Shown: positions 4,580 to 36,346 of the stretch, in pieces
Layout of the letters: each line of letters opens with the position of its first letter
Position numbering within the stretch: the first letter of the stretch is position 1
From: a virus
Length of the DNA stretch: 36,346 bases
IMG/VR virus record: IMGVR_UViG_3300037551_000025
Coordinates: 1-36,346 of that record
Reading direction: 5' to 3' (one strand)
Notes under the pieces: model-generated
Told to the model about the DNA's origin: nothing
The model's database searches: none
Seen by the model: only the letters and a program-made list of their open reading frames with translations
Program-made: the position numbers and the translations under genes

Positions 4580-4929
4580 GCCGCCTCCACGAGGAGGAAC
4601 ACCAACTTGAACTTCCCGGCCGCAGGGAGGAACTGGTAGGTGATGAGGCAGCGACCATCGGTCAGCATGGCGAACGAGGCGCACGGGGCCGCGGTGAGCG
4701 TCAGGGCGCCGTCGAGCTGCTGGACGCTGGCCAGGATGACGGCTCCGACTCGGAACGGTGGGCGGTCGAGCGCCAGCGTCCCACTCGGCCCCAGCACCGG
4801 CCCGGCCGTCCAGAGGTACGAGCGAGGTCGCTGCTCGAGCGCCAGGGACGTGCCGCGGAGCGTGTTGAGCCACCGCAGCGCCTGGGGCGGATCGGCGAGC
4901 TCCTGCTCTCGGAGGGGTCCAGGAGTCAT
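4576..4929 (-). CDS. Hypothetical tail-module protein (117 aa)
   Basis: Starts at ATG 4929, overlapping the stop of the nozzle-like gene (ATGA). The sequence has alternating hydrophobic stretches (VGAVILASVQQ, GALTLTAAPCASFAML, KFKLVFLLVEAA) consistent with a small all-beta domain. It may be an accessory tail or decoration protein, but no family is recognised. Confidence 0.72.
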   Translation of the reverse strand: MTPGPLREQELADPPQALRWLNTLRGTSLALEQRPRSYLWTAGPVLGPSGTLALDRPPFRVGAVILASVQQLDGALTLTAAPCASFAMLTDGRCLITYQFLPAAGKFKLVFLLVEAA

Positions 4930-9595: not shown

Positions 9596-10909
9596 TCAGT
9601 AGGTGATGCCGGAGATGTTGACCGTGTGGCGCAGCGACTCGCAGAACGGGGCCTGGTTCGAGTAGATGCGCATCTCGGATCCGGCCGAGGAGCTGGACTC
9701 GAGGATGAGCTTATCGCCATCGCCGTGCCGCGTGATGAAGCTGATGTCGCTCGCTCCGACGCGGATGAATTCCTCGGGCACGATGATGTGCGCCGAGCCG
9801 TCTTTCTGAAACGGATGGGGCATCAGCTCGATCAGACCTGTCTGGCCCACGAAGGTCAACGTCTTGGTGCCCGCCTTCGCCTTGCTCTCGGCGTAGCTCG
9901 CGTCGAACTGGCGGAGGGCCGCCATGTCCGTGTTCATGACCTCGTACGCCTTGGTCGGGATGATGGCCACGACGTCGCGCACGAGGTTGTAGTTGGCCAA
10001 GATGCCGTCTGCCTCGAGCAACTTGCCGAAGCTGAGCACACCGCCCGAGGCGTACTGGTTGCCGCGGTGCAGGTCGTACGTCCCCGTCGGGATGTTCCAG
10101 AACGTTCCGGACGACGAGCTGATGGCCGAGATGGCGTCGATGCCGGGCGCCTCGGTCGTCGAGGTCCCGCCGACCGCCGAGCCGAAGAAGAGCACGTCGT
10201 TCGCCACCCAGCCGCTTGCCGTGGTGCCGTAGTTCAGCTCGACGGTCTTGTTGGCCGGGTCGACGCCCGACACGCGGCACCAGCCCGAAGCACCAGAGAC
10301 GACGCCGGTGTTGATGTTCGCCGCCTGGCGCGCGGTCGACAGGTCCGACTGGTAGAGGTCGATGAAGGCCCCCACCATGCCGGCCCAGAGGCCAGTTGAC
10401 CACGTCGCGTCAGTGAGCGTCAGGGTCGTCTTGTAGGCGCCCGAGCTTCCCGACTCCGAGCCGACCGTCTTAACGATGCCGATGCCCTTGGTCCCGTGCA
10501 GAATGCCGATCTCGAGCCGCTTCAGCGCCGCCTGCGAGAGCCGGCGCACGACGTGCTGGGTGGCCGACTTGAACGCGGCCTTCGAGTTGGCGGACCGAGC
10601 GATCGCCTCGTACGACACGAGGGCTCGGCCGAGAATCTGGGCCCCGGCGATCTGCGCGTCCTGCATCTGGCCGGCGGTTGCCGGGAAGAAAACGCTCGTC
10701 CCGGTGCCGATGGTGGTTCCGGCCGCGGCGTAGCTGATGCCGTGCTCGAGCGTCAGGTCGATGGGCTGGTGGTACAGATTTCCGGGCTGGAGCTCCTGCT
10801 CGACGAATTTGATTCGCTTCGCCAACTGGGCCATGAAGCCCCAGGCCTCGACGATGTCGCTACCGTACGTTTCCTTGAAGAGACCGATCAACGTGCTCTG
10901 CTGATTCAT
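9596..10909 (-). CDS. Major capsid protein, HK97-fold type (437 aa)
   Basis: The order terminase, portal, scaffold, two small genes, then this gene is the canonical place for the capsid. The N-terminal helix (STLIGLFKETYGSDIVEAWG) and a following QPIDLTLEHGISY segment fit P22/N4-type capsids of about 400-450 residues. The middle has a long helix (about residues 105-135, VSYEAIARSANSKAAFKSAT), and the C-terminal half contains beta-rich P-domain-like stretches and a conserved-looking AIIPTKAYEVMNTD segment. A GGAG site precedes ATG 10909. No N-terminal prohead protease cut site is evident. Confidence 0.82.
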   Translation of the reverse strand: MNQQSTLIGLFKETYGSDIVEAWGFMAQLAKRIKFVEQELQPGNLYHQPIDLTLEHGISYAAAGTTIGTGTSVFFPATAGQMQDAQIAGAQILGRALVSYEAIARSANSKAAFKSATQHVVRRLSQAALKRLEIGILHGTKGIGIVKTVGSESGSSGAYKTTLTLTDATWSTGLWAGMVGAFIDLYQSDLSTARQAANINTGVVSGASGWCRVSGVDPANKTVELNYGTTASGWVANDVLFFGSAVGGTSTTEAPGIDAISAISSSSGTFWNIPTGTYDLHRGNQYASGGVLSFGKLLEADGILANYNLVRDVVAIIPTKAYEVMNTDMAALRQFDASYAESKAKAGTKTLTFVGQTGLIELMPHPFQKDGSAHIIVPEEFIRVGASDISFITRHGDGDKLILESSSSAGSEMRIYSNQAPFCESLRHTVNISGITY

Positions 10910-15502: not shown

Positions 15503-17035
15503 TCAGAATCGCCTACCCGTGAGGCCGGACGCAAGAGCCGAGAGCCCCGTCGACTGCTGGCTCTGCACCTGGGCGCCCACGAAAACGTCTCGAGGCGGGA
15601 CCGGGCGGCAGTCACGGTGCCAGCGCACGTTGCGGCCGAGGTAGACGAGGCAGTCGACGCCCTCACCGTGGTCGAGGCTGGTGCGCTCCCACTCGGTGCG
15701 AGCCTTATTCCACAGCGTGCCCGACATCTGCGCAAGCAGCCGCTTGCACCGCGGGTGCACGATGAGCCGTCGCTGGCGGATGAGCATATTGATGTTGTCT
15801 ACCTGGAGGTGCTTGTCGGCCTTGTCCGTGGGCATGATGGCGTACCCGTGGGGGCCAGACATCTCGGCGAGGAGCTGCACATCGTTGTCGCCGACGCGAA
15901 GGTATGGCTGTCGAGGTGCCTTGTCGGAGATGCATTTGGACAACCAGACGTCAGGCACCGTGCGCTCGAGAAAATCCTTCGCGCCCAGCAACGTGCCGTC
16001 GAAGCGGTCGGCGCCGTACAACCGCAGCTCGATGGCCTTCGCGTCGGCGGCAATCTCCGACAACGTCTTCGCTCGCCACTCGCACTCCTCCTCGACGACG
16101 ATGCGACTCGACGCCACGTCGTGCCACCCCCAGATGCCGAACGACGGGTCAGGCTGCCAGCCCCAGTCGAAGCTGACGTACGCGTCGAAGTGAGGCGGCC
16201 GCGGTAGTTCGAGGATGCCCTCGCGTTGCGCGGCCTCGTCCCATGCTGGCAGGGCTGCCCGAGTCGTCTCGACGATGCGCTGCGCCAAGTACTCACGCCT
16301 GAAGGCGCTCGACTCAAGCAACTCCTCGCGCGTCATAGCCAAACGCTCCATCTCGCCGTGAATGACGGCCTCGTGGTCGATTCTCGGGTTGCTCCAGAAC
16401 GTGTCGTGGGCATACCGCTGAACGAGCGCCAGTGCGTCGCAGCGAGCCGAGAACTCGTGCGCTGGTGTCTCGGCTGGGCTCGACTCGTAGACACCGATGC
16501 CTCCGGTCGTCTGGAGTTGAGGGACGTAAACCTGTTCGACGGCGACGAGGTCCGCATAGAAGCCAGCCTCGCTCAACACCACGATGTGCGCGTTGCGACC
16601 TCGGCTGCGGCGGAACTGCATGTTGTCTGTTCCGTAGACGGCGACCTCGCTCCCGTTGGCGAATCGCACCTCGCCGTCGACGAAGCGGACGTTCCATTCT
16701 GGGGGGAGGTCAGACTCAATCTCCGTCAGAAACGTGCTGGCTATTTTGTCGGCGTTCTGCCCAGTTTGCGCACAGAAGACGCCACGCATGTTCGCTCGCC
16801 CCAGCCGGCCGAACATCCACGCCAGGACGCAGAACGTCTTGCCGCGCTGGCGAGATACTTCGAGAGCCGACCAACCTCCTGGAGGCGTCGCCTCGAGCAT
16901 CCGCACCCACTCCTGTTGCCCGCCCGTTGGTCCGCTGCTGTCGAGCAGGTAGCTGGCCTGATCGCCGCGGCGCCACAGCTCACGACGCAGCTCCCGACGC
17001 AGGGCGAGTCTGTCGCTGGCGAGTCTGTCGCTCAT
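15503..17035 (-). CDS. terL: Terminase large subunit (510 aa)
   Basis: Packaging motor ATPase and nuclease. Walker A is SRQRGKT (residues 61-67), the Walker B region is IVVLSEAG (about 151-158) with the catalytic Glu kept but Ser where Asp is usual, and a YESSP coupling motif follows near 183-187. The nuclease domain has VSFDWGW (Asp290) and a C-terminal GEGVDCLVYL acidic motif, as expected for an RNase H-like fold. ATG 17035 gives a normal-length protein; GTG 17083 would add 16 residues. A recognisable small terminase is not adjacent; see the DUF5681-like gene at 29834. Confidence 0.88.
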   Translation of the reverse strand: MSDRLASDRLALRRELRRELWRRGDQASYLLDSSGPTGGQQEWVRMLEATPPGGWSALEVSRQRGKTFCVLAWMFGRLGRANMRGVFCAQTGQNADKIASTFLTEIESDLPPEWNVRFVDGEVRFANGSEVAVYGTDNMQFRRSRGRNAHIVVLSEAGFYADLVAVEQVYVPQLQTTGGIGVYESSPAETPAHEFSARCDALALVQRYAHDTFWSNPRIDHEAVIHGEMERLAMTREELLESSAFRREYLAQRIVETTRAALPAWDEAAQREGILELPRPPHFDAYVSFDWGWQPDPSFGIWGWHDVASSRIVVEEECEWRAKTLSEIAADAKAIELRLYGADRFDGTLLGAKDFLERTVPDVWLSKCISDKAPRQPYLRVGDNDVQLLAEMSGPHGYAIMPTDKADKHLQVDNINMLIRQRRLIVHPRCKRLLAQMSGTLWNKARTEWERTSLDHGEGVDCLVYLGRNVRWHRDCRPVPPRDVFVGAQVQSQQSTGLSALASGLTGRRF

Positions 17036-17120
17036 CACCCGCTGCACCACCAGCAGCTCGCCTGACCTCGGCGCGAGACACACGCCGGAGCTTGGGTCGA
17101 CGGCCGGTGGAGGTCGGGCC

Positions 17121-19020: not shown

Positions 19021-19902
19021 TCAGTCCTCCAGAAACTTGAGGTCGGGGTCAACGGTGTCTTCGGCGTCGTCAAGCGGTCGGGCCCATCGCGGGAGCTGCA
19101 ACGGCATCTCGGTGGCAGCGTAGCCAGGCCAGAAGTTGTCGCGCTGGCACACGTGCAGCAGGTCGAGCAACTCTCGGTACCGGGCCCGACCGAGGTTGAG
19201 CGTCTCCTCGTCGGCTCGGTACACCTGCACCACGTGCGGCGCCGCGACCTCCACCACCACCCAGGCCCACGGCAGCTCCCGGCCCGTCATCTCTCGGTAG
19301 CCGTCGACGTACCATGCCGCCTGCACGTGGTACTCGAGCCGGATGACCTCGCGGGCAAACCCAGTGGGCGAGCCGTCTCGAGCCGTCTTGAGGTCGACGA
19401 TTCCCTCGGGGCCGACGGCGTCTAGCCGTCCCTTGCACGCCACCTCGTAGCCCTCGAGCCCGTTGACCTCGGGCCGTCGGTGCGTCCACTGAATCGTCTG
19501 CTCAGTGAGGCACCCGGTGAGGTAGCGCGCGGCCGGCTGGTGCGCCCTCACCGCTAGAGCCAGCGTCTGCGCCAGCTCAGCTTCACCGCGCTTGAGCACC
19601 TCGACGCTCGCCGACAGCATGCGTGCCTCGAACTCCTCCCAATCCTTTCCTCGGCGCGGATGTGGCCAGACCGAGTACCGAGCCGCGAACGTCTCAGGCT
19701 CCAGCGTCGCCACGTGCGTCGCCCGGCCGCGCTTGAGAGTCGCCGTGTCTGGTCGCCCATTCGTCGTCGCGTGGAGGTAGTGGGCCGGAGACTTCGAGAG
19801 CCATTTGAGCGTGCTCCAGTTGAGCGCCGGAATCTCGATGTAGTCCTCGAACGTCTCGGGCGGCACGTAGAGGAGTCGCTTCTTGGGTCGCTCAGTCAGC
19901 AC
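19021..19902 (-). CDS. PD-(D/E)XK exonuclease, RecE/DUF3799-like (293 aa)
   Basis: The N-terminal SxLKWLSKSPAHYLHA motif and GRATHVATLEPETF (about residues 59-72) are signatures of the RecE C-terminal/DUF3799 family. Catalytic elements are KGRLDAV (D161), GIVDLKTA (D170, K172) and YHVQAAWYVDGY (Q194, Y198), the order expected for PD-(D/E)XK exonucleases of the RecB/Cas4 type. It probably resects DNA ends for recombination or replication. GTG 19902 is chosen for its GAGGTGG site; GTG 19908 is possible. It overlaps the upstream gene by 11 bases. Confidence 0.82.
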   Translation of the reverse strand: MLTERPKKRLLYVPPETFEDYIEIPALNWSTLKWLSKSPAHYLHATTNGRPDTATLKRGRATHVATLEPETFAARYSVWPHPRRGKDWEEFEARMLSASVEVLKRGEAELAQTLALAVRAHQPAARYLTGCLTEQTIQWTHRRPEVNGLEGYEVACKGRLDAVGPEGIVDLKTARDGSPTGFAREVIRLEYHVQAAWYVDGYREMTGRELPWAWVVVEVAAPHVVQVYRADEETLNLGRARYRELLDLLHVCQRDNFWPGYAATEMPLQLPRWARPLDDAEDTVDPDLKFLED

Positions 19903-20155
19903 GGCCACCTCGTGCGGAGTCGAGCAGTGTTGACCTCGAGACGTTGCCGAGGTGCTGGGGCTCCTGGTGTGCATCGAGGCCATCGGCGATAGCGCGCGAG
20001 TAGAAGGCGACGTCGTCGTGGAACTCTCCATCTCCGTCGATGGCGAGCGAACGCGCCACATGTAGCGCCACCACCGTCAGCGCCAGGTCTCTCTCGAGGT
20101 CCGTGGCCGGGTGCCGCAGCGTGCGCAGCGCCTTCACCGCTTCGTCGACTGTCAT
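19892..20155 (-). CDS. Hypothetical helical protein (87 aa)
   Basis: ATG 20155 overlaps the upstream stop (ATGA). MTVDEAVKALRTLRHPATDL leads into further helices (LALTVVALHVARSLAID), then a polar C-terminus. It is not recognised. It sits between a zinc-ribbon-like gene and the nuclease in the early unit. Confidence 0.68.
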   Translation of the reverse strand: MTVDEAVKALRTLRHPATDLERDLALTVVALHVARSLAIDGDGEFHDDVAFYSRAIADGLDAHQEPQHLGNVSRSTLLDSARGGRAD

Positions 20156-20307: not shown

Positions 20308-20630
20308 CGTGCCTCCCATGCCTCTCGTGCCCTCTCGCACGCCAGCTCGTCGGCATCCTCGTCTCGGTACCACTCGTCCACGTCGGCGCACTCCTCGACC
20401 TGACGCACAGCGAGGCGGGCCTCGTCCTCGGTGAGTGTCCACGGCACGTCGCCCTGCCACGTCGCCGTCGAGACCGCGCTGTCCTCCACCAGCACCTCGA
20501 GCTCGTAGGTCTCGTAGCCCTCGTCGCACGCGCAGACGAGCGGGAGGTGGCGCTCCACCTCGAGCCGCGTCTCTCCGGTGGACAGCGCGGGCTCCGGCAG
20601 CGTCGTCAGGTAGCGGTCGAGGTCGGTCAC
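20295..20630 (-). CDS. Acidic hypothetical protein (111 aa)
   Basis: GTG 20630 overlaps the upstream stop (GTGA). The sequence VTDLDRYLTTLPEPALSTGE leads to a beta segment (RLEVERHLPLVCACDEGYET), and the C-terminal third is strongly acidic (EECADVDEWYRDEDADELAC). No recognised family. Strong acidity in a small phage early protein can indicate a DNA mimic or an inhibitor of a host DNA-binding protein, but this is conjecture. Confidence 0.68.
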   Translation of the reverse strand: MTDLDRYLTTLPEPALSTGETRLEVERHLPLVCACDEGYETYELEVLVEDSAVSTATWQGDVPWTLTEDEARLAVRQVEECADVDEWYRDEDADELACERAREAWEARCED

Positions 20631-21367
20631 GGCGCCTCCCAGTCGGCTGGTCGAGGGCACACGTGCGCGTAACCTGACTCGAGCAGCGCCACCGGGTTGC
20701 GGATTTGGGCTCGGTGAATCGGACTCGGCCGCTTGAGACACACGGTGAATTTCCAGCCCTCGGGCGGCGCGTCCTGCACGTCCGACAACATCGTCTGGTA
20801 CTCACCCCGGAGCGGAGTCGTCGAATGGACGGCCTCGTACTCGAGCGGGTCGGAGTCGCCGACTGCGTGACGGAGCCAGGCGACTCGGAGGACTGCTACG
20901 GACTCAGACGACGGGGCGGTGTAGATGTATAGACCTGGGCGCACGGTGAGACCTCGGGTGGAGATTGTGTTGGGTGTGGCGTCGGCGTCGGCGTCGGCGT
21001 GGGCGAAGGCGTAGGCGTAGGCGTCGGCGTCGGCGTAGGCGTCGGCGTCGGCGTAGGCGTAGGCGTCGGCGTAGGCGTAGGCGTCGGCGTCGGCGTAGGC
21101 GTCGGCGAAGGCGTAGGCGAAGGCGTAGGCGTAGGCGTCGGCGTCGGCGTAGGCGTCGGCGAAGGCGTAGGCGTCGGCGAAGGCGTAGGCGTCGGCGTCG
21201 ACGTAGGCGTGGGCGTGGGCGTGGGCGTGGGCGTCGGCGTCGGCGTAGGCGTGGGCGTGGGCGTGGGCGTCGTCGGATGGCCGGCCCCACCACCAATCAT
21301 CCGGCCCGCGCTCAGCCGACTCGTCTCGAGCTACCTCGAGTCCCTCACGACAGGCCTGGAGACTCAC
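20627..21367 (-). CDS. Protein with an Ala-X dipeptide repeat linker (246 aa)
   Basis: GTG 21367 overlaps the stop of a 20-codon gene (GTGA), fixing this frame over the two alternatives through the repeat. Residues 1-33 form a short polar/aromatic head (with GPDDWWWGRPS), residues 34-130 are about 48 Ala-X pairs where X is His, Tyr, Asp or Phe, and residues 131-246 look like a folded domain (TVRPGLYIYTAPSS, WKFTVCLKRPSPIHRAQIRN). The repeat is encoded by near-identical hexanucleotides. I do not recognise either flanking part. Silk-like or disordered-linker behaviour is possible for the repeat. Confidence 0.72.
   Translation of the reverse strand: MSLQACREGLEVARDESAERGPDDWWWGRPSDDAHAHAHAYADADAHAHAHAHAYVDADAYAFADAYAFADAYADADAYAYAFAYAFADAYADADAYAYADAYAYADADAYADADAYAYAFAHADADADATPNTISTRGLTVRPGLYIYTAPSSESVAVLRVAWLRHAVGDSDPLEYEAVHSTTPLRGEYQTMLSDVQDAPPEGWKFTVCLKRPSPIHRAQIRNPVALLESGYAHVCPRPADWEAP
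20981..21268. repeat. Hexanucleotide microsatellite, about 48 units
   Basis: On the plus strand the unit is GGCGTN-type (GGCGTA, GGCGTC, GGCGTG, GGCGAA). Read on the minus strand it is GCC followed by TAC, GAC, CAC or TTC. Only the codon after GCC varies. A unit of six keeps every reading frame when the copy number changes, so it can vary protein length but not switch the gene off. It is a likely site of slippage and of assembly error. Confidence 0.95.
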
Positions 21368-21910: not shown

Positions 21911-21925
21911 GTTCGTCTCCTCCTG

Positions 21926-21999
21926 TACTCCGGGCGGGGCTCGAACCCGCGACCCCCAGCTTAGAAGGCTGGTGCTCTATCCAACTGAGCTACCGGAGC
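21926..21999 (-). tRNA. tRNA-Arg (anticodon TCT)
   Basis: A complete 74-nt cloverleaf: acceptor GCTCCGG/CCGGAGT (first pair G-U), D-arm GCTC/GAGC, anticodon stem CCAGC/GCTGG with loop CTTCTAA, T-arm GCGGG/CCCGC with loop TTCGAGC, discriminator A. The CCA end is not encoded. It reads AGA/AGG, usually rare in GC-rich hosts. It lies inside the leftward polycistronic unit, 6 bases after one gene and 15 bases before the next, so it must be released by RNase processing. Confidence 0.95.
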
Positions 22000-22260: not shown

Positions 22261-22327
22261 GCGCTCTCCTGTTGCTTCAGTCGTGCCAGTCGTAACTTAA
22301 TATTTCTATTCACTTCGCCATCGACTA

Positions 22328-22357
22328 CCGCGCAGGCCCTGCGTTTCGCCTGCGCGG
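22328..22357 (-). promoter_or_regulatory. Stem-loop and AT-rich spacer after the Gly-Ser repeat gene
   Basis: CCGCGCAGGC and GCCTGCGCGG (22328-22337, 22348-22357) pair perfectly over 10 bp around a 10-base loop. It is followed on the minus strand by the only AT-rich patch nearby (about 22296-22315, containing AAATATTAAG), ahead of the next gene. A partial terminator plus an internal promoter would fit, but no U-run or clear -35 is present. Confidence 0.45.
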
Positions 22358-22372
22358 CGGCGCAAATGGTGC

Positions 22373-22788
<416 letters not shown>

Positions 22789-22792
<4 letters not shown>

Positions 22793-23168: not shown

Positions 23169-23186
23169 GCCCGACCGGAGTCGGGC
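23169..23186 (-). promoter_or_regulatory. 7-bp stem, 4-base loop hairpin between two early genes
   Basis: GCCCGAC (23169-23175) and GTCGGGC (23180-23186) form a perfect tetraloop hairpin after the first early gene. The same CGCCCGACTCCGGT string follows the matching rightward gene at about 29746-29758, so part of it belongs to the duplicated cassette. No U-run follows. Confidence 0.45.
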
Positions 23187-23197
23187 GGTGGCGCTGC

Positions 23198-23425
23198 CTA
23201 CGCCTTGATCGGCACCAGCTGGCCGGTGGTGGCTCGACCGCAGACCAAAACGATCCACTCCTCGTTGCCAGCCTCGTCGTAGTCGGAGACCTCGTAGGTT
23301 GCCTTTGGCTCGACGCTCGGGTCAGCTTGGTCGTCCGTGGGCAGATAGACGTTGCCTCCGTTGCAGCAGACATTAATGGCGGTTCCGTCTGTAATCCAGG
23401 TGTGCGTTGCGGTTGCGGTGGTCAT
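23198..23425 (-). CDS. First gene of the leftward early unit, unknown function (75 aa)
   Basis: ATG 23425 has a GGAG site in a leader shared with the rightward gene at 29517. The start MTTATATHTWITDGTAINVC resembles the other gene (MTTATTGHTLTI...) only for about nine residues. The rest is beta-rich and acidic (YEVSDYDEAGNEEWIVLVCG). It is the promoter-proximal gene and so probably among the most highly expressed early products. Function unknown. Confidence 0.75.
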   Translation of the reverse strand: MTTATATHTWITDGTAINVCCNGGNVYLPTDDQADPSVEPKATYEVSDYDEAGNEEWIVLVCGRATTGQLVPIKA

Positions 23426-23465
23426 TGTTGGCTCCGTTGTGTTGCGTTTAGATGAACACTCATAG

Positions 23466-23481
23466 AGCACCAACCGTGCCA
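23466..23481 (-). promoter_or_regulatory. Sigma-54-like promoter motif, leftward
   Basis: The minus-strand 16-mer TGGCACGGTTGGTGCT differs from the sigma-54 consensus TGGCACG-N4-TTGCW at one base (GTGCT for TTGCT) with correct GG/GC spacing, and lies 40 bases before the first early start. The same 16-mer occurs at 29460-29475 on the plus strand. The 11-mer ACGGTTGGTGC recurs 82 bases upstream (23549-23559), so a repressor or activator site is an alternative reading. Confidence 0.55.
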
Positions 23482-23621
23482 TAACCCAACCACGCGACAT
23501 CTCTAGACTTCGTCGAAACAAGCCGCGCATGTTCTGCATGACTTCTACGCACCAACCGTCAATCGCCAGCAAGTATCGAAGCTTGCGATGTCCGAAAACA
23601 CTACAGCCGACGCAATCTGAG

Positions 23622-23645
23622 ACGGTCTGGAAAAGTATAGACCGT
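23622..23645. promoter_or_regulatory. Candidate operator (7-bp inverted repeat)
   Basis: ACGGTCT (23622-23628) and AGACCGT (23639-23645) form a perfect inverted repeat with a 10-base AT-rich spacer that contains a TATAGA-like -10 element at its right edge (23636-23641). It lies about 40 bases ahead of the ribbon-helix-helix gene, the arrangement expected of an autoregulated repressor operator. Binding partner is inferred. Confidence 0.5.
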
Positions 23646-23683
23646 ACCTTGACGCCCGCGCTGTGCGGCGCTACCACTCTCTC

Positions 23684-23878
23684 ATGCGCGAAAAAACATC
23701 GGTCGTGTACGTGGAGGTCCCGAGGTCCCTGCGGAAACGGCTCGACAGGGAGGCCAAGTCGAGCGGTCGCACGCTGACGGCGGTCGTACAGGCCGCGCTG
23801 ATGTGCGACCTGTACGCACCGAGAACGAACCGAGAGCAGGCACAGCGCCGCCTGGACGACGGGGAGGAGCAGCTGTGA
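23684..23878 (+). CDS. Ribbon-helix-helix (Arc/CopG-type) DNA-binding protein (64 aa)
   Basis: The sequence VVYVEVPRSLRKRLDREAKS, then GRTLTAVVQAALMCDL, is a typical ribbon-helix-helix: a short strand, helix A, a G(R)T turn and helix B. Such proteins dimerise and bind inverted repeats. ATG 23684 is chosen; GTG 23663 would add seven residues. No clear Shine-Dalgarno site is present, so initiation may be near-leaderless. It heads the rightward replication unit and faces the leftward early promoter, so it is a good candidate for the early switch regulator. Confidence 0.78.
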   Translation: MREKTSVVYVEVPRSLRKRLDREAKSSGRTLTAVVQAALMCDLYAPRTNREQAQRRLDDGEEQL

Positions 23879-24063
23879 GCCCCGGCGACGTCTCGGCGCT
23901 GTGCAGGCAAGCCCAGGGGCATCTCGACAGCGTGGTGGCCGACCTCCTCCAGGCTCTCTCTGGGCTGGCTCCAGGGTCGCTGCTGGCGCGCGAGGTCGAG
24001 AGCGTGCTTGACGACTGCGTCCGGGCCCGGCGCAACCTCGAGAGGGCGCCCAGTACGCCTTGA
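23875..24063 (+). CDS. Small helical protein after the regulator (62 aa)
   Basis: GTG 23875 overlaps the regulator stop (GTGA). It is helical and Leu/Ala/Arg-rich (VSALCRQAQGHLDSVVADLL, SLLAREVESVLDDCVRARRN), probably forming a helical hairpin. No recognised family. Confidence 0.68.
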   Translation: MSPGDVSALCRQAQGHLDSVVADLLQALSGLAPGSLLAREVESVLDDCVRARRNLERAPSTP

Positions 24064-24148
24064 CGTGCGCTCGCGGTGAGCACAGAGTGACTCGAACATG
24101 TCCGGTTGCAGCCAGACAAACGCTGATTCCTTCCCAGATGCACGGGAG

Positions 24149-24199
24149 CTCCCGCCCGCTTGGTGCTGCAACATCAGGCTGCGGCGGGAGTAGTTTTTT
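24149..24199 (+). terminator. Terminator-like hairpin overlapping the helicase ribosome-binding site
   Basis: CTCCCGCC (24149-24156) pairs with GGCGGGAG (24183-24190), extended past a one-base bulge, and is followed by TAG and six T (24194-24199), directly before the helicase ATG. The 3' arm carries the GGGAG ribosome-binding site. It can therefore end transcription or hide the site. A palindrome CGGGAGCTCCCG (24143-24154) overlaps the 5' arm and could compete with it. Confidence 0.65.
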
Positions 24200-24200
24200 C

Positions 24201-25658
24201 ATGCCGCCAATCCTCAGGCCGTACCAGGTCGAGGCTGTCGCATCTGCTCGAGTCGCCATCAAGAGCGGTGCGCGTTCCGTCCTGCTCGTTTCCCCCACAG
24301 GCTCAGGCAAGACGGTGCTCGCCGCGGACATCATCCGCTCCGCCGTCGCCAAGGGCAGTCGCACCTTGTTCCTTGCTCACAGGCGCGAGCTCATCCGCCA
24401 GACGAGCGACAAGCTCTCTTCGTTCTCGGTGCCTCACGGCATAATCATGGCTGGGGAGCCAATGGCGCTCCAGCAGTCGTGTCAGGTCGCTTCTATCCAG
24501 ACGCTCGCTCGTCGACGAGATGTCCTTTCCGCGGTCGACCTCATCTTTTTTGACGAGGCGCACCACGCCGCAGCCACCACCTACCAAGAGGTGCTCAAGT
24601 GGTTCCCTTCGGCGAAGGTGGTCGGGCTCACTGCGACACCGTGGCGACAGGATGGGAGAGGGCTCAACGACATCTTCGTTTCGCACGTCATCGTCTCGAC
24701 CCCGGCTCAACTGCGCGACCAGGGCTTTCTCGTGCCGGTTGGGGGCTGGGCCTACGAGTCGATCGACACGAGCGCTGCGCAGGTGCGAGGCGGGGACTTC
24801 GTCGCTGCCTCGATGGTCGACGCTGCGAAGTCCAAGCGCGTAATCGGCGACGTCGTAGCCGAGTACGTGCGGTATGGAGAGGACAAGCGCGGCATCGTAT
24901 TTGCGGTGTCGGTCGAAGCGTCGCAGCTCATGGCGGCGGCATTCGTCGAGGCCGGGGTAGCGGCGGAACATCTCGACGGGGAGACGCCTCGCGAAGAGCG
25001 AGACGCCATTCTGGCTCGGCTGCGCAGCGGGAAAACGCGCGTCGTCTGCAACTGCAACGTGCTCACCGAGGGATTCGATTGCCCAGAGCTCGAGGTTTGC
25101 ATGCTGGCGCGGCCGACGCTGTCGCCAGGGCTCTACCTCCAGATGGTGGGCCGGGTGCTCCGTCCAGCTCAAGGGAAGGACCGAGCACGGATTCATGATC
25201 ACGCCAACCTCCTTGTGACGCACGGGCACCCGTACGCCGAGCGCGACTACCTCCCGTGCGAAGAGGAGTCGGTCAATGCCTCGCGCAAGGACGCTGAGGC
25301 GCGCGAGCCGAAGGAGCTCCACTGTCCGTCGTGCCACTCAGTGCGGAGCCGGTGGCCGTGCGACTCGTGCGGCTACTCTCCCACTCCTCAGGAGCTCCAG
25401 TACGAGGATGCGAAGCGGCGGGCCATCGAGGCTGACGGGCTGGCGAAGGCTCTGGCTCCAGACGCGAAGCGGGCGGCGATGGCGGCGAAGTTTCGAACGA
25501 CAGACTGGGAACAACGGAGGGAATTTTACATGCGCATGGTGACCAAGCACGGCCCCAGGAAGGCAGTCGGCGTGTACCGATGGTGGAGCGGCGAGACGTC
25601 GTGGCCGAAGCGCGAGTGGAAGGACGAAGCTGGGTTCTACTCTGAGGTCCGCTCGTGA
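24201..25658 (+). CDS. SF2 DEAD/DEAH-type helicase with zinc ribbon (485 aa)
   Basis: Contains ILRPYQVEAV (Q-motif-like), Walker A SPTGSGKT (residues 31-38), DEAHH (118-122), TATPW (144-148), a motif V-like NVLTEGFDCPEL (286-297) and motif VI QMVGRVLRP (314-322). A Cys cluster C375-C378-C387-C390 looks like a zinc ribbon. The family unwinds DNA or remodels forks at the expense of ATP. ATG 24201 starts just before the Q motif; a TTG frame from 24060 would add 47 unlikely residues. It overlaps the primase start by GTGA. Confidence 0.9.
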   Translation: MPPILRPYQVEAVASARVAIKSGARSVLLVSPTGSGKTVLAADIIRSAVAKGSRTLFLAHRRELIRQTSDKLSSFSVPHGIIMAGEPMALQQSCQVASIQTLARRRDVLSAVDLIFFDEAHHAAATTYQEVLKWFPSAKVVGLTATPWRQDGRGLNDIFVSHVIVSTPAQLRDQGFLVPVGGWAYESIDTSAAQVRGGDFVAASMVDAAKSKRVIGDVVAEYVRYGEDKRGIVFAVSVEASQLMAAAFVEAGVAAEHLDGETPREERDAILARLRSGKTRVVCNCNVLTEGFDCPELEVCMLARPTLSPGLYLQMVGRVLRPAQGKDRARIHDHANLLVTHGHPYAERDYLPCEEESVNASRKDAEAREPKELHCPSCHSVRSRWPCDSCGYSPTPQELQYEDAKRRAIEADGLAKALAPDAKRAAMAAKFRTTDWEQRREFYMRMVTKHGPRKAVGVYRWWSGETSWPKREWKDEAGFYSEVRS

Positions 25659-27946
25659 ACGCGCCGCAACCCGAGGTGAGAGAACTGCTCGTCCGCCTCG
25701 GCATGGACGCGCTGCTACACGAGGCCGAGTCGCGCGGGCTGTCGCCGCGGGGCATCCGGCTCCGTTGCCCATTCGAGGGCTGCTCCGACAAGGGCCCAGA
25801 GCGCGAACGTGACGCCGTGGTGTTTGCCGGCGGGCACCCTCGAATCCACTGCTACGCGTGTGGCGAGACGGGCGACCTCCTCGACCTGTACCAGCGCACG
25901 CGGGGGCTCACCGCTGCCGAGGCGATCGCTCTTGTCCGCGGCGCTCCGGTGGCTGACCGTCCAATGCCGACACTTCGCGTCGTCGGTCGCACACCACCAG
26001 ACGACGTCGGCAGACTGACGGCCAACGAGGCTCAGCGGCTGTGGGACGCGCTGGCGCGCACCGACGAGCTCGGAGAGAGGTACCTCACCGGCCGCCATCT
26101 CGAAGGCGCCGTCTCAGCCGACCTGGTGCGATTCGCGACCGAGGCCTGCAAGGACAAGGGCATCTCGGCGCATGGCCAGCGCGGGCACCGGGTGGCGCTC
26201 CTGCTCTCCGACGTCACAGGACAGGCCCGCGGGCTCCAGCTGCGGCTCGCGCGCGACGCCAGGTCGAAGGAGTCGAAGGTCATCAGCGCCAAGGGGAGCT
26301 CGCCGAGCCGGAGCTTCTTCGGTCGACCCGGGCTCGTCGAAGGGGCCCCGCTGGTGTGCGTCGCCGAGGGCATGGCCGACACCCTGGCCGTGTCTCTGTG
26401 GGCCGGTGACGCCGCCGTGGTAGTCGGAGCGGCCGGGAAAGGCTTCCTGCCCCGGCTCGCCGAGGAACTGGAGGCGGCCGGCATCGACGTCGAGGGGAAG
26501 CTCTTCGGGCTCTTCCCGCAGAATGACAGGCCGGCCAACGCGTCTCGTCGCGAATTCGTACGGCTTGCCCAGCTGCTCAAAGCCCGCGGGGCGCACGTAG
26601 CGTACGTACGCACGCCCGACGAGTTCAAGGACGTCGCGGAGTGGCGGGCAGCTCGGTCGGAGGCGACGTGGCCACCAGAGGACCTCGCCAGAGCCTTCGT
26701 GGAGCAGCCTGGCGACGACGTCCCGGCCGCGATGATCACGCCGCCTGGGCTTGCTGTGCATGTCCCCGTGCGCGTCACGGTGGAGCGCTACGAGCAGAGC
26801 TTCACCACGCTCTGCGCCCTGCTCGACGACCCAGTACACCGAGAGACGGCGATGGGCCTTGGCGAGCTCACCTGGTGTGAGATGGCCAGCAAGGCCCGGG
26901 TGGGAGGGCGAGCCATCGAAGAGGGTGACCTGCCAGCCATCAGGCTCGCCCTCGAGAGCCACACCAGGTCCACGGATGGCAAGCCGCTCAAGTTCACCTG
27001 CGGCGACATCGCCGAGGCCCTGACGATGCTGGCGCGCCGGTGCACGGTGCATCCTGTGCGCGACTGGCTCAATTCGCTCGTCTGGGACGGCACCCACCGC
27101 ACTGGGGAGTTGGGCTTGGCCCTCGGCCACGGCACTGCGTCCCTCGAGAGCTCTCTACTTCAGCGCTGGCTCCTCAGTGCCGTATCGAGGGCGCTGGTTC
27201 CTGGCTCCAAGGTGGATACGGTCCTCGTGCTCGTCGGCGACCAAGCGTCCTTCAAGTCGACGTTCTGCGACGTCATGGGCTCGCCCTGGTTCACCGACTC
27301 TCCAGTCGACACGCGCGACAAAGATGGCAAGATGGTGATGCGCCAGGCGTGGATCGTCGAGTGGTCCGAGCTCGACAGCATGAGGCGCTCCAAAGACGTG
27401 GAGCAGCTCAAGGCCTTCCTCTCGAGCCGGGTCGACACTTTCCGCCCGCCCTACGCCAAGACCCTCGTCACCGCGCCGCGTCATTGCGTCATCGTTGGGA
27501 CGACCAACGACCCCCAGTTCCTGCACGACCCCACCGGCAACAGACGCTTCTGGCCGGTGGCCATCAAGGGGCGGATTGACATCGAATGGGTCCGGCAGCA
27601 CCGAGAGCAGCTGTGGGCAGAGGCCGTCCACCTGTACCGAGCCGGGGAGCGCTGGTGGCTCGACGAGACCGAATCGGGCCTGCTCGAGGAGGCCAGCCAT
27701 GATCACGAGTCGCACGACGCCTGGTCGCCCCTCGTCGAGGACTGGTTGGAGGAGCACAAGACGACCCAGGAGGTGAGTGTCGGGGCTGTGCTGGAGCTCG
27801 GTCTCGACAAGGAGCACGACACCTGGACCCGCGGCGACGAGATGCGGGTCGCCGCCATCCTCCGCTCGCTCGGCTGGGGCGGGCCGACCAGGTCAATGCG
27901 AGACGGGGTCCGTAGGTACCTGTGGACTCGCCCAGAGACTGCCTGA
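25655..27946 (+). CDS. Primase-helicase fusion: CHC2-like zinc finger, TOPRIM, VirE-type ATPase (763 aa)
   Basis: Zinc finger C38-x4-C43 ... HCYAC (C66, C69), then a TOPRIM domain with CVAEGMADTLAV (E238) and LFGLFPQNDRPAN (D291), then a VirE/D5-type ATPase with GDQASFKST (528-536), AWIVEWSELD (565-574) and GTTNDPQFLHDPTGNRRFWP (615-634). It would prime and unwind at the phage fork. GTG 25655 overlaps the helicase stop. No phage DNA polymerase is visible, so host polymerase is probably recruited. Confidence 0.88.
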   Translation: MNAPQPEVRELLVRLGMDALLHEAESRGLSPRGIRLRCPFEGCSDKGPERERDAVVFAGGHPRIHCYACGETGDLLDLYQRTRGLTAAEAIALVRGAPVADRPMPTLRVVGRTPPDDVGRLTANEAQRLWDALARTDELGERYLTGRHLEGAVSADLVRFATEACKDKGISAHGQRGHRVALLLSDVTGQARGLQLRLARDARSKESKVISAKGSSPSRSFFGRPGLVEGAPLVCVAEGMADTLAVSLWAGDAAVVVGAAGKGFLPRLAEELEAAGIDVEGKLFGLFPQNDRPANASRREFVRLAQLLKARGAHVAYVRTPDEFKDVAEWRAARSEATWPPEDLARAFVEQPGDDVPAAMITPPGLAVHVPVRVTVERYEQSFTTLCALLDDPVHRETAMGLGELTWCEMASKARVGGRAIEEGDLPAIRLALESHTRSTDGKPLKFTCGDIAEALTMLARRCTVHPVRDWLNSLVWDGTHRTGELGLALGHGTASLESSLLQRWLLSAVSRALVPGSKVDTVLVLVGDQASFKSTFCDVMGSPWFTDSPVDTRDKDGKMVMRQAWIVEWSELDSMRRSKDVEQLKAFLSSRVDTFRPPYAKTLVTAPRHCVIVGTTNDPQFLHDPTGNRRFWPVAIKGRIDIEWVRQHREQLWAEAVHLYRAGERWWLDETESGLLEEASHDHESHDAWSPLVEDWLEEHKTTQEVSVGAVLELGLDKEHDTWTRGDEMRVAAILRSLGWGGPTRSMRDGVRRYLWTRPETA

Positions 27947-28319
27947 CTTGCCCAACCTGTGGATGAGCTTTTGAGGGTACCTCGGACACACATAAACACT
28001 CTGAATCATTAGTGGTTCTCCTCCTTTACCCTACCTACCTAACCTATTGATGATGATGATTATAGAGAGAGAGAGGAGAGAGGGGGGGGGGTGGGTGGTG
28101 GGGGTGGACGCGTAGCCACACCAGCCGAGATAGGAGCGATAGGTAGGGCAGGTCAGGCAAGACGGAATTACGCATAAGAATCATGATGTTGCGACATTTT
28201 TCATGGGGTGAGCGGTCAGTCACTGACGGGCAATTGGTCGGGCAGACTTGACAATAGAAGCACAACCGTCAATTCCGGGAATTGACAGAAGGGTCTAAAA
28301 TGTCAACTGAGGTGACTCG
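27947..28319. other. Non-coding region, probable replication origin and promoter
   Basis: The longest gene-free stretch in the window. It holds TGTGGATGA (27958-27966, one mismatch to a DnaA box), an AT-rich patch, a purine/G-rich tract (about 28063-28110, including ten consecutive G) framed by a 9-bp inverted repeat CCCTACCTA/TAGGTAGGG (28029-28037, 28140-28148), and palindromes GTCAGTCACTGAC (28215-28227) and GTCAATTCCGGGAATTGAC (28268-28286). Two TTGACA boxes (28248, 28282) suggest promoters, though -10 matches are poor. It directly follows the primase gene. A 7-codon leader (28300-28323) lies at its end. Confidence 0.55.
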
Positions 28320-28412
28320 ATGATCAGCGCCCACCTGCTCCTCCTCCGGGCCGCGCTCGGCGTCGCTGACAAAGGCATACCGATTGCAGATATGTCAGGA
28401 GGTGAGCCGTGA
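28320..28412 (+). CDS. Very small hydrophobic peptide (30 aa)
   Basis: ATG 28320 has a GAGGTG site, overlaps a 7-codon leader stop (ATGA), and its own stop overlaps the next start (GTGA). The peptide MISAHLLLLRAALGVADKGI continues for ten more residues and could form a short hydrophobic helix. It may be a translational leader or a small membrane peptide. Confidence 0.5.
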   Translation: MISAHLLLLRAALGVADKGIPIADMSGGEP

Positions 28413-28855
28413 AGCTCGAGACCCTGGCCGAGCTCAAGGCCTCCACGCCGACGGAGGAGTACCGGACGACTCGAGGGCAGGTGGCGACGCGGTACTCGCA
28501 CTGCGTCGTGTGCGGCGACCCGCTCGACAACGCGAAGGGACACGGAGGCCGCCAGAAGTGCGTCTGCGCCGACGAGATTTGCAAACGCGCGTACCTCCGG
28601 TGCTGGCGCCGAGAGCAGGCGCAGCGTCTCGGCCGCTGGCTCGGAGGTGACTACTACCAGCGAATCAGGCCACCCGGAGTGCAGGCGAGCCGGCGCCGAC
28701 CGTGCATCGTGACACCCGAGGTGGCGGCCCGAATCGAGGCGCGCGTGCTGGCAGTGGGTACGATTCGCGAGGCCCTCGTCGGGACCAGAGTCAGCACCAA
28801 AACGTGGTGGCGGTACCGGCTCCGCCAGGCGTCGCTGGCCGAGGTGACGCCGTGA
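28409..28855 (+). CDS. Zinc-finger plus HTH-like DNA-binding protein (148 aa)
   Basis: GTG 28409 has a perfect AGGAGGTG site. Residues 32-58 hold a zinc-binding cluster (CVVCG ... CVCADEICKRAY) of a type common in small phage/mobile-element regulators. The C-terminus (residues about 105-145, ARIEARVLAVGTIREALVGT then TKTWWRYRLRQ) resembles a helix-turn-helix. It lies beside the origin and before the resolvase, so a replication or late-gene regulatory role is plausible. Confidence 0.7.
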   Translation: MKLETLAELKASTPTEEYRTTRGQVATRYSHCVVCGDPLDNAKGHGGRQKCVCADEICKRAYLRCWRREQAQRLGRWLGGDYYQRIRPPGVQASRRRPCIVTPEVAARIEARVLAVGTIREALVGTRVSTKTWWRYRLRQASLAEVTP

Positions 28856-29343
28856 GGAGCGCTCGGCTCGACCGGCTGTCCGACGCACTCGCGGTGATGC
28901 TCCTCAGAGATCCGGTGCTCTCGGTGACGCTGCCGGTCCACCTCACAAACACCAGCAACGCTCGCCAGCACTGGGGTACCACCGCGCGCAAAGCCAGGGT
29001 GCGGCACACCGTCACGCTCGCAGTGCAGACCCGGGCCCGCCACGTCGGCTCCGTCCTCTCGGGCGTCGGCGTCGGCGACCTCGCCGTCCTCGCCGTCCGT
29101 CTCGTCTACATCGGCCCGCGGGAGCTCGACGACGACGGCGTGACGAGCGCGGTTAAGTCCCTCCGCGACGGTGTGGCAGACGCGCTCGGAGTCAACGACA
29201 GAGACCCGCGCGTTACCTGGGTGCCGGACCAAGAGCGTGGTGGAGTGCGAGAGTACGCTGCTCGAGTGGAGGTGTACGTTGCCGCTGCGCCCCGCGGCTC
29301 CGAGCCGCTCGGGCCAGCGCAAAAGTCGACCAAACCGACCTGA
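28852..29343 (+). CDS. rusA: RusA-family Holliday junction resolvase (163 aa)
   Basis: Contains the RusA signature: HWGTTARKARV (about 40-50), GPRELDDDGVTSAVKSLRDG (88-107) and VADALGVNDRDPR (108-120), with Asp93/94/95, Lys102 and Asp106 in the positions of the acidic metal-binding cluster and catalytic Lys. RusA enzymes are homodimers cleaving four-way junctions, useful for resolving branched DNA before packaging. GTG 28852 overlaps the upstream stop (GTGA). Confidence 0.85.
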   Translation: MRSARLDRLSDALAVMLLRDPVLSVTLPVHLTNTSNARQHWGTTARKARVRHTVTLAVQTRARHVGSVLSGVGVGDLAVLAVRLVYIGPRELDDDGVTSAVKSLRDGVADALGVNDRDPRVTWVPDQERGGVREYAARVEVYVAAAPRGSEPLGPAQKSTKPT

Positions 29344-29459
29344 ATTTAGACAACCCAACCACGCGTAATCACTTGCGATTGACCAGACGTCCGAGCCGGT
29401 CACGCAAGCAGTGCGCGCGTGATTGTGGAGCCCAGAAGGAGTTCCGCGCGTCTGCGTGG

Positions 29460-29475
29460 TGGCACGGTTGGTGCT
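29460..29475 (+). promoter_or_regulatory. Sigma-54-like promoter motif, rightward
   Basis: TGGCACGGTTGGTGCT, identical to 23466-23481 on the other strand. Downstream bases through the ribosome-binding site GGAGCCAACA and the first codons ATGACCACCGCAACC also match, with about seven differences in 65. A 14-mer AACCCAACCACGCG (29352-29365) upstream also recurs beside the leftward copy (23483-23496). It drives the gene at 29517, 41 bases downstream. Confidence 0.55.
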
Positions 29476-29516
29476 TTATGAGTGTTCGTCAACAACGCAG
29501 CACAATGGAGCCAACA

Positions 29517-29735
29517 ATGACCACCGCAACCACCGGCCACACTCTCACCATCAACCCGGACGCGATGACGCTCACTATTTCTGGACCCACTGAGACAATG
29601 GACTCGATCCCAGACATCGAGTTGAGGACCGCCGCTCTCCAACTCGGCCTGGCTGTGGATTTCGAGCGCGGGCCGCTCAACGAGACCTCGTACGCCCTCA
29701 GGCAGATCGAGACGCTCGCCGACCTGTTTGACTGA
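29517..29735 (+). CDS. First gene of the short rightward unit, unknown function (72 aa)
   Basis: ATG 29517 sits in the leader duplicated from the leftward early gene. MTTATTGHTLTINPDAMTLT is followed by helices (PDIELRTAALQLGLAV, ALRQIETLADLF). Only the first residues resemble the gene at 23198, so the leader, not the whole gene, was duplicated or recombined. Function unknown. Confidence 0.7.
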   Translation: MTTATTGHTLTINPDAMTLTISGPTETMDSIPDIELRTAALQLGLAVDFERGPLNETSYALRQIETLADLFD

Positions 29736-29833
29736 CTCAACCCGCCCGACTCCGGTGAGATGGACTGCGGGGAGGGCTGATGGCCCCCCGACTGGGCTGG
29801 CGCGAGGTGCTCGAGTCGGAGTAGGCTGACGAG

Positions 29834-30160
29834 ATGGCAAATGACATCAAGCCCAAGCAAAAACGGGGCCGCGGAAACCCGAACTGGGTGAAAGGTGTCA
29901 GTGGGAACCCGGCCGGTCGACCCGGAGGCTACGAGGAGTTCCGAGCCCAGTGTCGCAGCGCGTCACCCGAGGCCTTCGCGGCGCTGCGCACGGCAGCCAA
30001 AGACGGCGACGTCCAGGCGGCGAGGGTGCTGCTCGAGTACGCCTGGGGCAAGCCCTCGTCGGCGCCAGAGGACCTCGAGGCCGTGCGCGAGGCGTCTCCG
30101 TTGTCGGGCCTGACGCTGGAGCAGCTGCGAGAGCTTGCGAGTCGAGCGGAGGAGGAGTGA
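29834..30160 (+). CDS. DUF5681-like protein, possible small terminase (108 aa)
   Basis: The N-terminal KRGRGNPNWVKGVSGNPAGR then PGG segment is the hallmark of the DUF5681 family (KGxSGNPxGRPxG). The C-terminal part is helical (PEAFAALRTAAKDGDVQAAR). Members often lie beside large terminases and have a DNA-binding-like basic start, so this could be the missing small terminase, even though it is about 12 kb from terL and on the other strand. Not proven. Confidence 0.7.
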   Translation: MANDIKPKQKRGRGNPNWVKGVSGNPAGRPGGYEEFRAQCRSASPEAFAALRTAAKDGDVQAARVLLEYAWGKPSSAPEDLEAVREASPLSGLTLEQLRELASRAEEE

Positions 30161-30824: not shown

Positions 30825-31138
30825 TGCCCGATCACCGTGGACGGCGAGGTGGGGGCGAGCACCGGAGCATCGAGCTGGGCGAGCGCGGCATCATTGGAGG
30901 CGCGCACGGCCGAGACGACCGACACCTTGGCCGTGTGGTGGTCCTTAAGCATCGCCCGGAGGTTGCTGACCAAGGCATAGAGCGGCCCCGAGGCGGCCAC
31001 GATGGCGTCGATTACGGTGAGCGTCGACTCGACCGCCGGCGCAACGTCGATGCCTCGCAGCGCCAGCAGCGCCATGAGCGGAGTCGCGATGCTCGCGATG
31101 ACCCTCCGAGTGCTGCCCCAATCGAATTTCGGCTCCAT
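30821..31138 (-). CDS. Putative holin (105 aa)
   Basis: ATG 31138 overlaps the endolysin stop (TGATG). MEPKFDWGSTRRVIASIATP is followed by two hydrophobic stretches (residues about 13-29 and 40-60), consistent with a two-TM holin in an N-in layout, then a charged C-terminus. Placement next to endolysin and lipoprotein supports a pore-forming lysis role. Family not recognised. Confidence 0.6.
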   Translation of the reverse strand: MEPKFDWGSTRRVIASIATPLMALLALRGIDVAPAVESTLTVIDAIVAASGPLYALVSNLRAMLKDHHTAKVSVVSAVRASNDAALAQLDAPVLAPTSPSTVIGQ

Positions 31139-31653
31139 CAGGTCTCCTTCGGTGTGACGGGTGGCACAGACGGCATGGGCGGCTCGAGCACCAGGCACAC
31201 GGCGTCGAACGCGGCGTGGAGGCGCTTGGCGTACTCGGCCGGCGCCAGGGTGTAGTAGCCGGCGCTGTAGAGGAGCCTCGGGAACGAGTCGAGGTCGCCG
31301 CGCTCGAGGGCGTTGCGCGCGAGGGCGTACCGGCCAGCGTTCTGGAGGGGCCCAAGGAAGCGCCAGTAGTCGGCGAGGAAGGCGTTGACGGTCGGGTAGA
31401 TGCGCCACGTCTGCGTGATGGGTTGGCCCTTCGCGTCGACGTCGCCGCCAACGTCGACCCACTTGGGGCCAATCCACGCCGACCCAGCGGTCAAGTTGGT
31501 GAGGTTGAAGCCGCGGGCCGCCGCCCGGCTCTTGCCCCAGCCCGACTCGAGCGCGCAGTGGGCGACGACGAGGCGAGCGGCGGTCGCGCCGAGGAACGGG
31601 AGCACCCCGTTGACATCGCACCTCAGGTTCCGGGTCCACGTCGGGTCAGCCAC
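31138..31653 (-). CDS. Endolysin, glucosaminidase/lysozyme-like (171 aa)
   Basis: GTG 31653 has a strong GGGAGGG site. Residues 28-54 contain LVVAHCALESGWGKSRAA and FNLTNLTAG, the ...A..ESGWG...........N..G pattern of FlgJ-like/GH73-type muramidases with a catalytic Glu36, and later YPTVNAFLADYWRFLG and SAGYYTLAP..YA segments also fit. It would cut the peptidoglycan glycan strand at lysis. No signal peptide is seen, consistent with holin-dependent release. Confidence 0.82.
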   Translation of the reverse strand: MADPTWTRNLRCDVNGVLPFLGATAARLVVAHCALESGWGKSRAAARGFNLTNLTAGSAWIGPKWVDVGGDVDAKGQPITQTWRIYPTVNAFLADYWRFLGPLQNAGRYALARNALERGDLDSFPRLLYSAGYYTLAPAEYAKRLHAAFDAVCLVLEPPMPSVPPVTPKET

Positions 31654-32044
31654 GGTCAGCCCTCCCAAGCAATCTGTCGACCTCGCGGCGCTGCTCTGAC
31701 TGCGCCTGCACCAGTCGGCTCAGCTCCTCGCGCTGGGCGAGCAGCGACTTGTCCACGTGCTCCTTGAGCGCCCCGAACGAGGCGTCGAGACGTCCCAGAA
31801 GGATGTGGTCGCCGTTCTGTGTGAGAGCGAGCGCCGTCTGTCCGTCCTTGAGGGCCCCGAGGCTGGCCCGCGTCTCGGTGCGCTCGGACTTTGCGTCGTC
31901 CTGCAGTTCCTTCATCTTCGCCTCGACGGATTTGAGCGAGGCCTCGATGCTCGTCTTGAGCGAGCCAACGCGCATCGCCAGACCCAGCCCAGTCCCAATG
32001 AGCGTCACCACCTCGATGACCAACTTGAGCAGCTCAGCGTCCAT
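31646..32044 (-). CDS. Membrane-anchored coiled-coil protein (132 aa), possible inner-membrane spanin
   Basis: Residues 5-25 form a hydrophobic helix (LLKLVIEVVTLIGTGLGLAM), followed by a long charged coiled coil (SIEASLKSVEAKMKELQDDA, EHVDKSLLAQREELSRLVQA). This single-TM plus coiled-coil layout is that of i-spanins and of some phage holin partners. ATG 32044 has a GGAGG site and overlaps the gene upstream by 11 bases. Confidence 0.68.
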   Translation of the reverse strand: MDAELLKLVIEVVTLIGTGLGLAMRVGSLKTSIEASLKSVEAKMKELQDDAKSERTETRASLGALKDGQTALALTQNGDHILLGRLDASFGALKEHVDKSLLAQREELSRLVQAQSEQRREVDRLLGRADRG

Positions 32045-35769: not shown

Positions 35770-36346
35770 GCCGGCGAGTTCGGCTTTCGACTCCGGCTTG
35801 CGGCCGAACTTGCTCGCGAACCAGTCGACGGCCGTCTTGGTGGCGAGCGCTGCGGCTGGAGCACCGGCTTGTGGAGCCGCCTTCGATGCCGCGTTCTCGG
35901 TCACGGCGAATGCTGACGGGAGCCTCGGCATGAGGTAGCGCTGGGCCATCTGCCCCATGAATGCCCCTCCAGCGCCGCCCATCGGTCCACCTCCAGCACC
36001 AGCTGCGGCACCGACAGCCATCCCGAGCGCCCCTTTGCGACCGATGGCCCTGGTAGCTTCGTCCGACGACAGGGCGATGACGTCCTTGAGGAATCCATAC
36101 TTAGAGTTGTGGGCCTTGAGAGCGTCGGCGAGGTCAGGAGCGAACGCGTTCGACTGCTGCTCCATCTGCTCTCGGAGGACGTCTGCCACCTTGTTGAGCT
36201 GCTCCCTGCTCAGGTCGGTAGTGAGAGGCCTGATGTCGTTTTGAGCATCCTGCTTGAGCTTGTCGAGCAGGATGAACGAGTCATCGAGACCTGCTGTCTT
36301 GGCCTGTTGTCGGATGAGGTCGATCGACCTGCGCGCGGCCCCCCCC
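35737..36346 (-). CDS. Putative internal virion protein, C-terminal part (continues from 1-1212)
   Basis: The frame enters from the window end (last 127 bases duplicate 1-127) and ends at TGA 35737. It adds 160 residues to the 404 encoded at 1-1212. A charged helix (ADVLREQMEQQSNAFAPDLA) is followed by a Gly/Ala-rich, possibly membrane-active stretch (ALGMAVGAAAGAGGGPMGGA) and a polar C-terminus. It is the last gene of the structural unit. Confidence 0.75.
   Translation of the reverse strand, partial: GGAARRSIDLIRQQAKTAGLDDSFILLDKLKQDAQNDIRPLTTDLSREQLNKVADVLREQMEQQSNAFAPDLADALKAHNSKYGFLKDVIALSSDEATRAIGRKGALGMAVGAAAGAGGGPMGGAGGAFMGQMAQRYLMPRLPSAFAVTENAASKAAPQAGAPAAALATKTAVDWFASKFGRKPESKAELAGSAFVAGQGGQ
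36220..36346. repeat. Terminal direct repeat, right copy
   Basis: Exact copy of 1-127. Removing one copy gives a 36,219-bp circle in which the minus-strand gene is continuous. Confidence 0.95.

Follow-up and report, generated by a model that had tools for sequence, protein, structure and literature searches.

The window analysed here is the whole of IMG/VR record IMGVR_UViG_3300037551_000025, 36,346 nucleotides (nt) of an uncultivated phage with a GC content of 66%. Its ends are identical over 127 base pairs (bp; 1-127 = 36220-36346), as is usual for complete circular assemblies, and the record is therefore probably a complete, circular genome. It carries two copies, A and B, of a cassette in which a 16-mer core resembling a sigma-54 -24/-12 element is followed by a leader, a ribosome-binding site (RBS), a start codon and the first five codons of an open reading frame (ORF; Table 1). 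From 23425 the genes read leftward, and between about 23660 and 30160 they read rightward; copy A thus lies where the two arms diverge, and copy B close to where the right arm ends. As a first-pass annotation of this DNA had described, the two cassettes lie in inverted orientation on either side of the replication genes and point outward.

The left arm headed by copy A includes the genes for exonuclease VIII, the large terminase, the portal and the capsid, together with those of tail proteins, which are likewise among the annotated products. Copy B heads a 72-residue ORF and a DUF5681 gene, and convergent minus-strand genes begin soon after. The earlier statement that each copy heads an operon stands for A, whereas B leads only these two genes. 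The proposal that the pair drives "both early arms" is not supported, since the helicase and primase genes (24060-27946, plus strand) are downstream of neither copy, each of which is directed away from them. In L069 and G003, two relatives, the large terminase gene is preceded by the DUF5681 gene, with one small gene between them in L069, and this placement suggests a small-terminase-like role for its product. We infer that the gene has been split from the terminase in the present phage and that copy B ties it to the terminase's programme.

Comparison of the two copies revealed that the 16-mer occurs exactly twice, as first annotated, with no further site in the genome at up to three mismatches. 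A 22-mer, TGGCACGGTTGGTGCTYTATGA, is likewise present twice and was absent from 100 dinucleotide shuffles, even at three mismatches. The reported near-identity past the 16-mer is also real, with a count, over the span from the 16-mer to the end of codon five, of six differences, one of them an indel, in place of the roughly seven noted before. From the first T of the 16-mer onward the copies are about 90% identical, with 9-10 matches in every block of 10 until near the indel. In the 120 bp immediately upstream, an ungapped alignment has 61/120 identical positions (51%) versus 28% expected; among some 20,000 random pairs the mean was 33.2 (sd 5.4) and the largest value 59. The contrast between 51% upstream and 9-10 of 10 from the first T places the onset of conservation precisely where the sigma-54-like element starts (T-26). 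This pattern is suggestive of differential constraint on an old duplicate and not of a fresh copy. Beyond approximately codon 6, homology between the 75- and 72-residue ORFs is undetectable, with protein and nucleotide scores at shuffle level. Because an identical 15-mer lies past both stop codons, the whole gene unit was probably copied and its ORF later replaced or altered beyond recognition. The hairpin that follows the stop codon in A (-34.8 kcal/mol, z -3.0) has no conserved counterpart in B.

Table 1. Positions of the cassettes, associated motifs and principal genes in the window (aa, amino acids).
Feature	Position	Strand	Remark
Copy A core, TGGCACGGTTGGTGCT	23466-23481	-	sigma-54-like -24/-12
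Copy B core, identical 16-mer, TGGCACGGTTGGTGCT	29460-29475	+	sigma-54-like -24/-12
Copy A conserved block	23411-23481	-	core, leader, RBS, start codon 23425, first five codons
Copy B conserved block	29460-29531	+	core, leader, RBS, start codon 29517, first five codons
Upstream flank of A	23482-23601	-	diverged homology with B
Upstream flank of B	29340-29459	+	diverged homology with A
14-mer AACCCAACCACGCG	23483-23496	+	adjoins core A, reads toward the opposite arm relative to A
14-mer AACCCAACCACGCG	29352-29365	+	upstream of B
15-mer CCGCCCGACTCCGGT	23174-23188	-	past the stop codon of the A ORF
15-mer CCGCCCGACTCCGGT	29742-29756	+	past the stop codon of the B ORF
Dyad upstream of A, TGCAGAACATGCGCG	23524-23538	-	-57 from core; candidate activator site
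Dyad upstream of B, CGCAAGCAGTGCGCG	29403-29417	+	-57 from core; candidate activator site
Dyad upstream of C, CGCAGGGCCTGCGCG	22329-22343	-	-55 from core; candidate activator site
Site C, weaker, TGGCACGACTGAAGCA	22273-22288	-	28 nt before start 22260
ORF behind site C, 84 aa	22006-22260	-	
First ORF of A, 75 aa	23198-23425	-	no family match
First ORF of B, 72 aa	29517-29735	+	no family match
DUF5681 protein	29834-30160	+	behind B; putatively small-terminase-like
437-aa protein	9596-10909	-	capsid by position and conservation in relatives
Portal	12504-14753	-	annotation
Large terminase	15503-17083	-	annotation; left arm, downstream of copy A
Exonuclease VIII	19021-20061	-	annotation
Ribbon-helix-helix (Arc/CopG-like) protein	23684-23878	+	first gene of right arm; candidate private regulator
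Helicase	24060-25658	+	replication gene
VapE-like primase/helicase	25655-27946	+	replication gene
148-aa protein	28409-28855	+	uncharacterised; paired cysteines; C-terminus helix-turn-helix-like by eye
Endolysin	31138-31668	-	annotation

The core departs from the sigma-54 consensus TGGCACG-N4-TTGCW at a single base (T-15 to G) and keeps the GG-N10-GC spacing, in agreement with the earlier reading. Across the whole genome only A and B match this consensus with at most one mismatch, where 0.42 sites are expected, and the two also ranked top in a genome-wide weight-matrix search and under three simpler scoring schemes. From about -120 to the ATG, a TAnnnT -10 hexamer is absent from both copies, and no consensus match to a sigma-70-type -10 plus -35 pair (16-18 bp spacing) was found at either. 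The fourth-ranked sigma-54-like site, at 28372 (plus strand), lies inside a small ORF and was dropped.

Neither a third site nor an upstream dyad had been part of the first-pass annotation. The third site, C, is weaker and retains TGGCACG and the GC of the core. A dyad, YGCA-N5-TGCGCG, precedes A, B and C at nearly constant distance, with its arm positions kept and its spacer free; the genome holds four such strings, the fourth inside the primase gene. When C was replaced by random genome stretches, the three-way match was equalled in 0.19% of trials (P 0.0019), for a motif that had been noticed before it was tested. The centre of the dyad falls at about -77 relative to the predicted transcription start, and it could be an enhancer site for a sigma-54 activator. 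In Desulfovibrio, sigma-54 promoters are for the largest part situated less than 100 nt from the nearest activator site (PMC4641369).

These findings are best read as describing paralogous promoter and translation-initiation cassettes, that is, twin co-regulated promoters. That the cassette is a promoter at all is a conclusion drawn from its sequence, whereas the duplication itself is directly observed. With good confidence, we take the cassettes to function as promoter/start modules coordinating two units. No other single explanation accounts for the core as well as sigma-54, and we regard the proposal that sigma-54 actually reads it as evenly balanced.

Several observations weigh against the sigma-54 reading. 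The weight matrix is approximate, having been written from the published consensus, and A and B count as one event and not as independent evidence. A genome of this kind would contain a hit of such quality by chance with a probability of about 0.2. The match to the consensus is weak evidence when taken by itself, and it is the position that carries weight, a comparable hit being expected by chance about 0.0003 times in one strand of the 96-nt leader. Site C ranks third under the matrix and anywhere from third to sixth across the schemes, and its predicted leader would be only about 2 nt, so that its RBS would stay untranscribed. The upstream dyad was noticed before it was tested. The 16-mer is itself also a dyad, GCAC-N5-GTGC. 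Searches with positive controls detected neither a phage gene for a sigma-54 activator nor one for a sigma-54 domain, and the host would therefore have to supply both. Finally, the cassette is present in none of the relatives found.

The dyad symmetry of the 16-mer lends itself to a different account, less likely in our view but the main and a serious rival, in which a phage regulator, for example the ribbon-helix-helix protein or the 148-residue protein, binds it as a private operator at both units, next to an otherwise unrecognised promoter. The 4-bp arms are perfect, the Arc/CopG-like gene is the first of the right arm and lies beside A, three GGTTGG boxes lie near A, and the 14-mer is common to both upstream regions. 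However, the dyad explains only 8 of the 16 conserved positions, while T-26, G-25, G-20 and T-11 match sigma-54 and not the dyad, and site C keeps TGGCACG and GC without the right arm of the dyad. An operator would also still require a core promoter, and no sigma-70-type promoter is visible. As for the 148-residue candidate, no family match was obtained and its structure model is too poor to use (predicted local distance difference test score, pLDDT, 42). The conserved leader, RBS and five codons could instead mark a post-transcriptional element, namely a leader RNA and translation-start module transcribed from elsewhere and promoter-like by chance. The 5' part of the leader does pair with the RBS in both predicted folds, but those folds do not outperform shuffled sequences (z -0.67 and -0.86), an Rfam search matched the tRNA only and no family for the block, and the block reaches exactly to T-26, with the RBS-pairing strand preceding the predicted transcription start. 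We therefore consider such an element unlikely.

The shared post-stop 15-mer, and with it the copying of a whole gene unit, would fit an explanation without selection as well, in which the blocks are alike because the copy is young or was homogenised. Yet identity is not uniform over what is one duplicate, given the diverged sequence just upstream and the dissimilar ORFs, and recent copying or gene conversion is accordingly quite improbable; local gene conversion is a further conceivable source of the identity within the block. The inverted orientation, with replication genes in between, also recalls an invertible segment whose repeats recombine and flip the 6-kb replication block. This is the least credible of the alternatives, as neither a tyrosine integrase nor a serine recombinase was found in searches whose controls were positive, and the ends of the repeats coincide with promoter and gene-start boundaries.

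The timing of phage genes is commonly attributed to sigma-70 promoters, RNA polymerases of the phage itself or antiterminators. In T7-like phages that possess their own RNA polymerase, one promoter sequence is reused at several gene starts, and the present cassette resembles these in the reuse of a conserved sequence at gene starts but differs in having two strong copies only; no single-subunit RNA polymerase is among the annotated phage proteins. The likeness to bacterial sigma-54 (RpoN) promoters extends beyond the core and its spacing to a dyad some 50 bp upstream, as a candidate activator site, and to the leader and RBS downstream, whereas the phage cassette is duplicated together with a translation start and has no known cognate activator. 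The start-associated sequences (SAS/ESAS) of cluster K mycobacteriophages, for which a leader and translation-start function of the kind weighed above has been proposed, are also phage-specific repeats at gene starts, and an inverted repeat lies upstream of some of them (PMC3203893, PMC12699233). SAS is a 13-mer, GGGATAGGAGCCC, found in many copies with 17-bp inverted repeats nearby, unlike the two long copies of another sequence with a -24/-12-like core found here. By the published definition (PMC3203893), and allowing up to two deviations, the 13-mer does not precede either start, where ACAACGGAGCCAACA and ACAATGGAGCCAACA are found.

Under the sigma-54 reading, host RNA polymerase with sigma-54 would form a closed complex on the -24/-12 core, and a host enhancer-binding protein on the YGCA-N5-TGCGCG dyad would open it. 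Transcription would start near the conserved GTGTTC and produce predicted leaders of 30 and 31 nt, each with the shared RBS and start codon, and the left arm and the short unit whose last gene is DUF5681 would in this way share one expression programme despite their separation. Expression from A and B may be middle or late, and internal promoters may also exist in the left arm. More tentatively, the packaging and structural arm and the detached small-terminase-like gene could form a regulon of the phage's own, built on duplicated sigma-54 promoters and an enhancer dyad dedicated to them, and would then fire only while one particular enhancer-binding protein of the host is active. The phage may coordinate its structural-gene arm and a packaging-type gene through a host sigma factor that is normally regulatory. 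If true, virion production would depend on a host switch that is ATP-driven and responds to signals, and the dependence on sigma-54 could be probed with two point mutations. The occurrence of the same start and post-stop element around different ORFs also hints at a way in which a phage might relocate a gene without loss of its expression programme. The open-access literature that we searched contained no described case of a phage handing its structural-gene arm to sigma-54, which is not proof of absence.

Searches with the primase or portal found no relatives, and those with the terminase and capsid found distant structural ones only. None of these has a comparable repeated leader, and none has a strong sigma-54-like site clearly before a gene start, as judged by eye. 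Among cultured phages, only one of Silvanigrella is related in its structural proteins, at 20-25% identity. No bacterial genome matched the phage, and the leader was found in neither viral nor bacterial genomes. As general background, Myxococcota and Desulfobacteria are rich in sigma-54 activators (PMC12316311). Of the 66 IMG/VR contigs that carry the 16-mer, none has the leader as well and none is a structural relative; L048 gave no more than a weak exonuclease match, and a single recurring sequence accounts for many of the contexts.

A scan for the pattern elsewhere identified unrelated phages with an excess of sigma-54-like sites. In L116 (IMGVR_UViG_3300032893_000226, also G015), such sites lie at 4544-4757 and 6815-6830, and two of them precede an RBS and ATG (4742, 6815). 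There were 9 matches versus 4.1 expected, a count reached in 3/200 shuffles, and over the whole record 8 matches to the sigma-54 pattern versus 0 for the reversed pattern, both in a record chosen for one such site. L115 (IMGVR_UViG_3300025000_000141) has five sites, distributed over both strands of a 474-bp stretch (2331-2804) upstream of a gene, with 13 matches at the locus versus 5.5 expected (reached in 0/200 shuffles), and the related L114 carries the same cluster.

Elsewhere in the window, a tRNA-Arg(TCT) gene (21925-21999, minus strand) lies between two left-arm genes. The same arm contains two long tandem-repeat regions, one at 20978-21272 within an ORF of Ala-Asp/Ala-Tyr repeats (20627-21367, minus strand) and the other at 22376-22788 within an ORF of Gly-Ser/Gly-Tyr repeats (22373-22792, minus strand). 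A 460-bp non-coding stretch after the primase gene (27947-28408) contains a G-run, further TTGAC/GTCAA half-sites and a perfect 19-bp palindrome, GTCAATTCCGGGAATTGAC, at 28268-28286, and is a possible origin or operator region.

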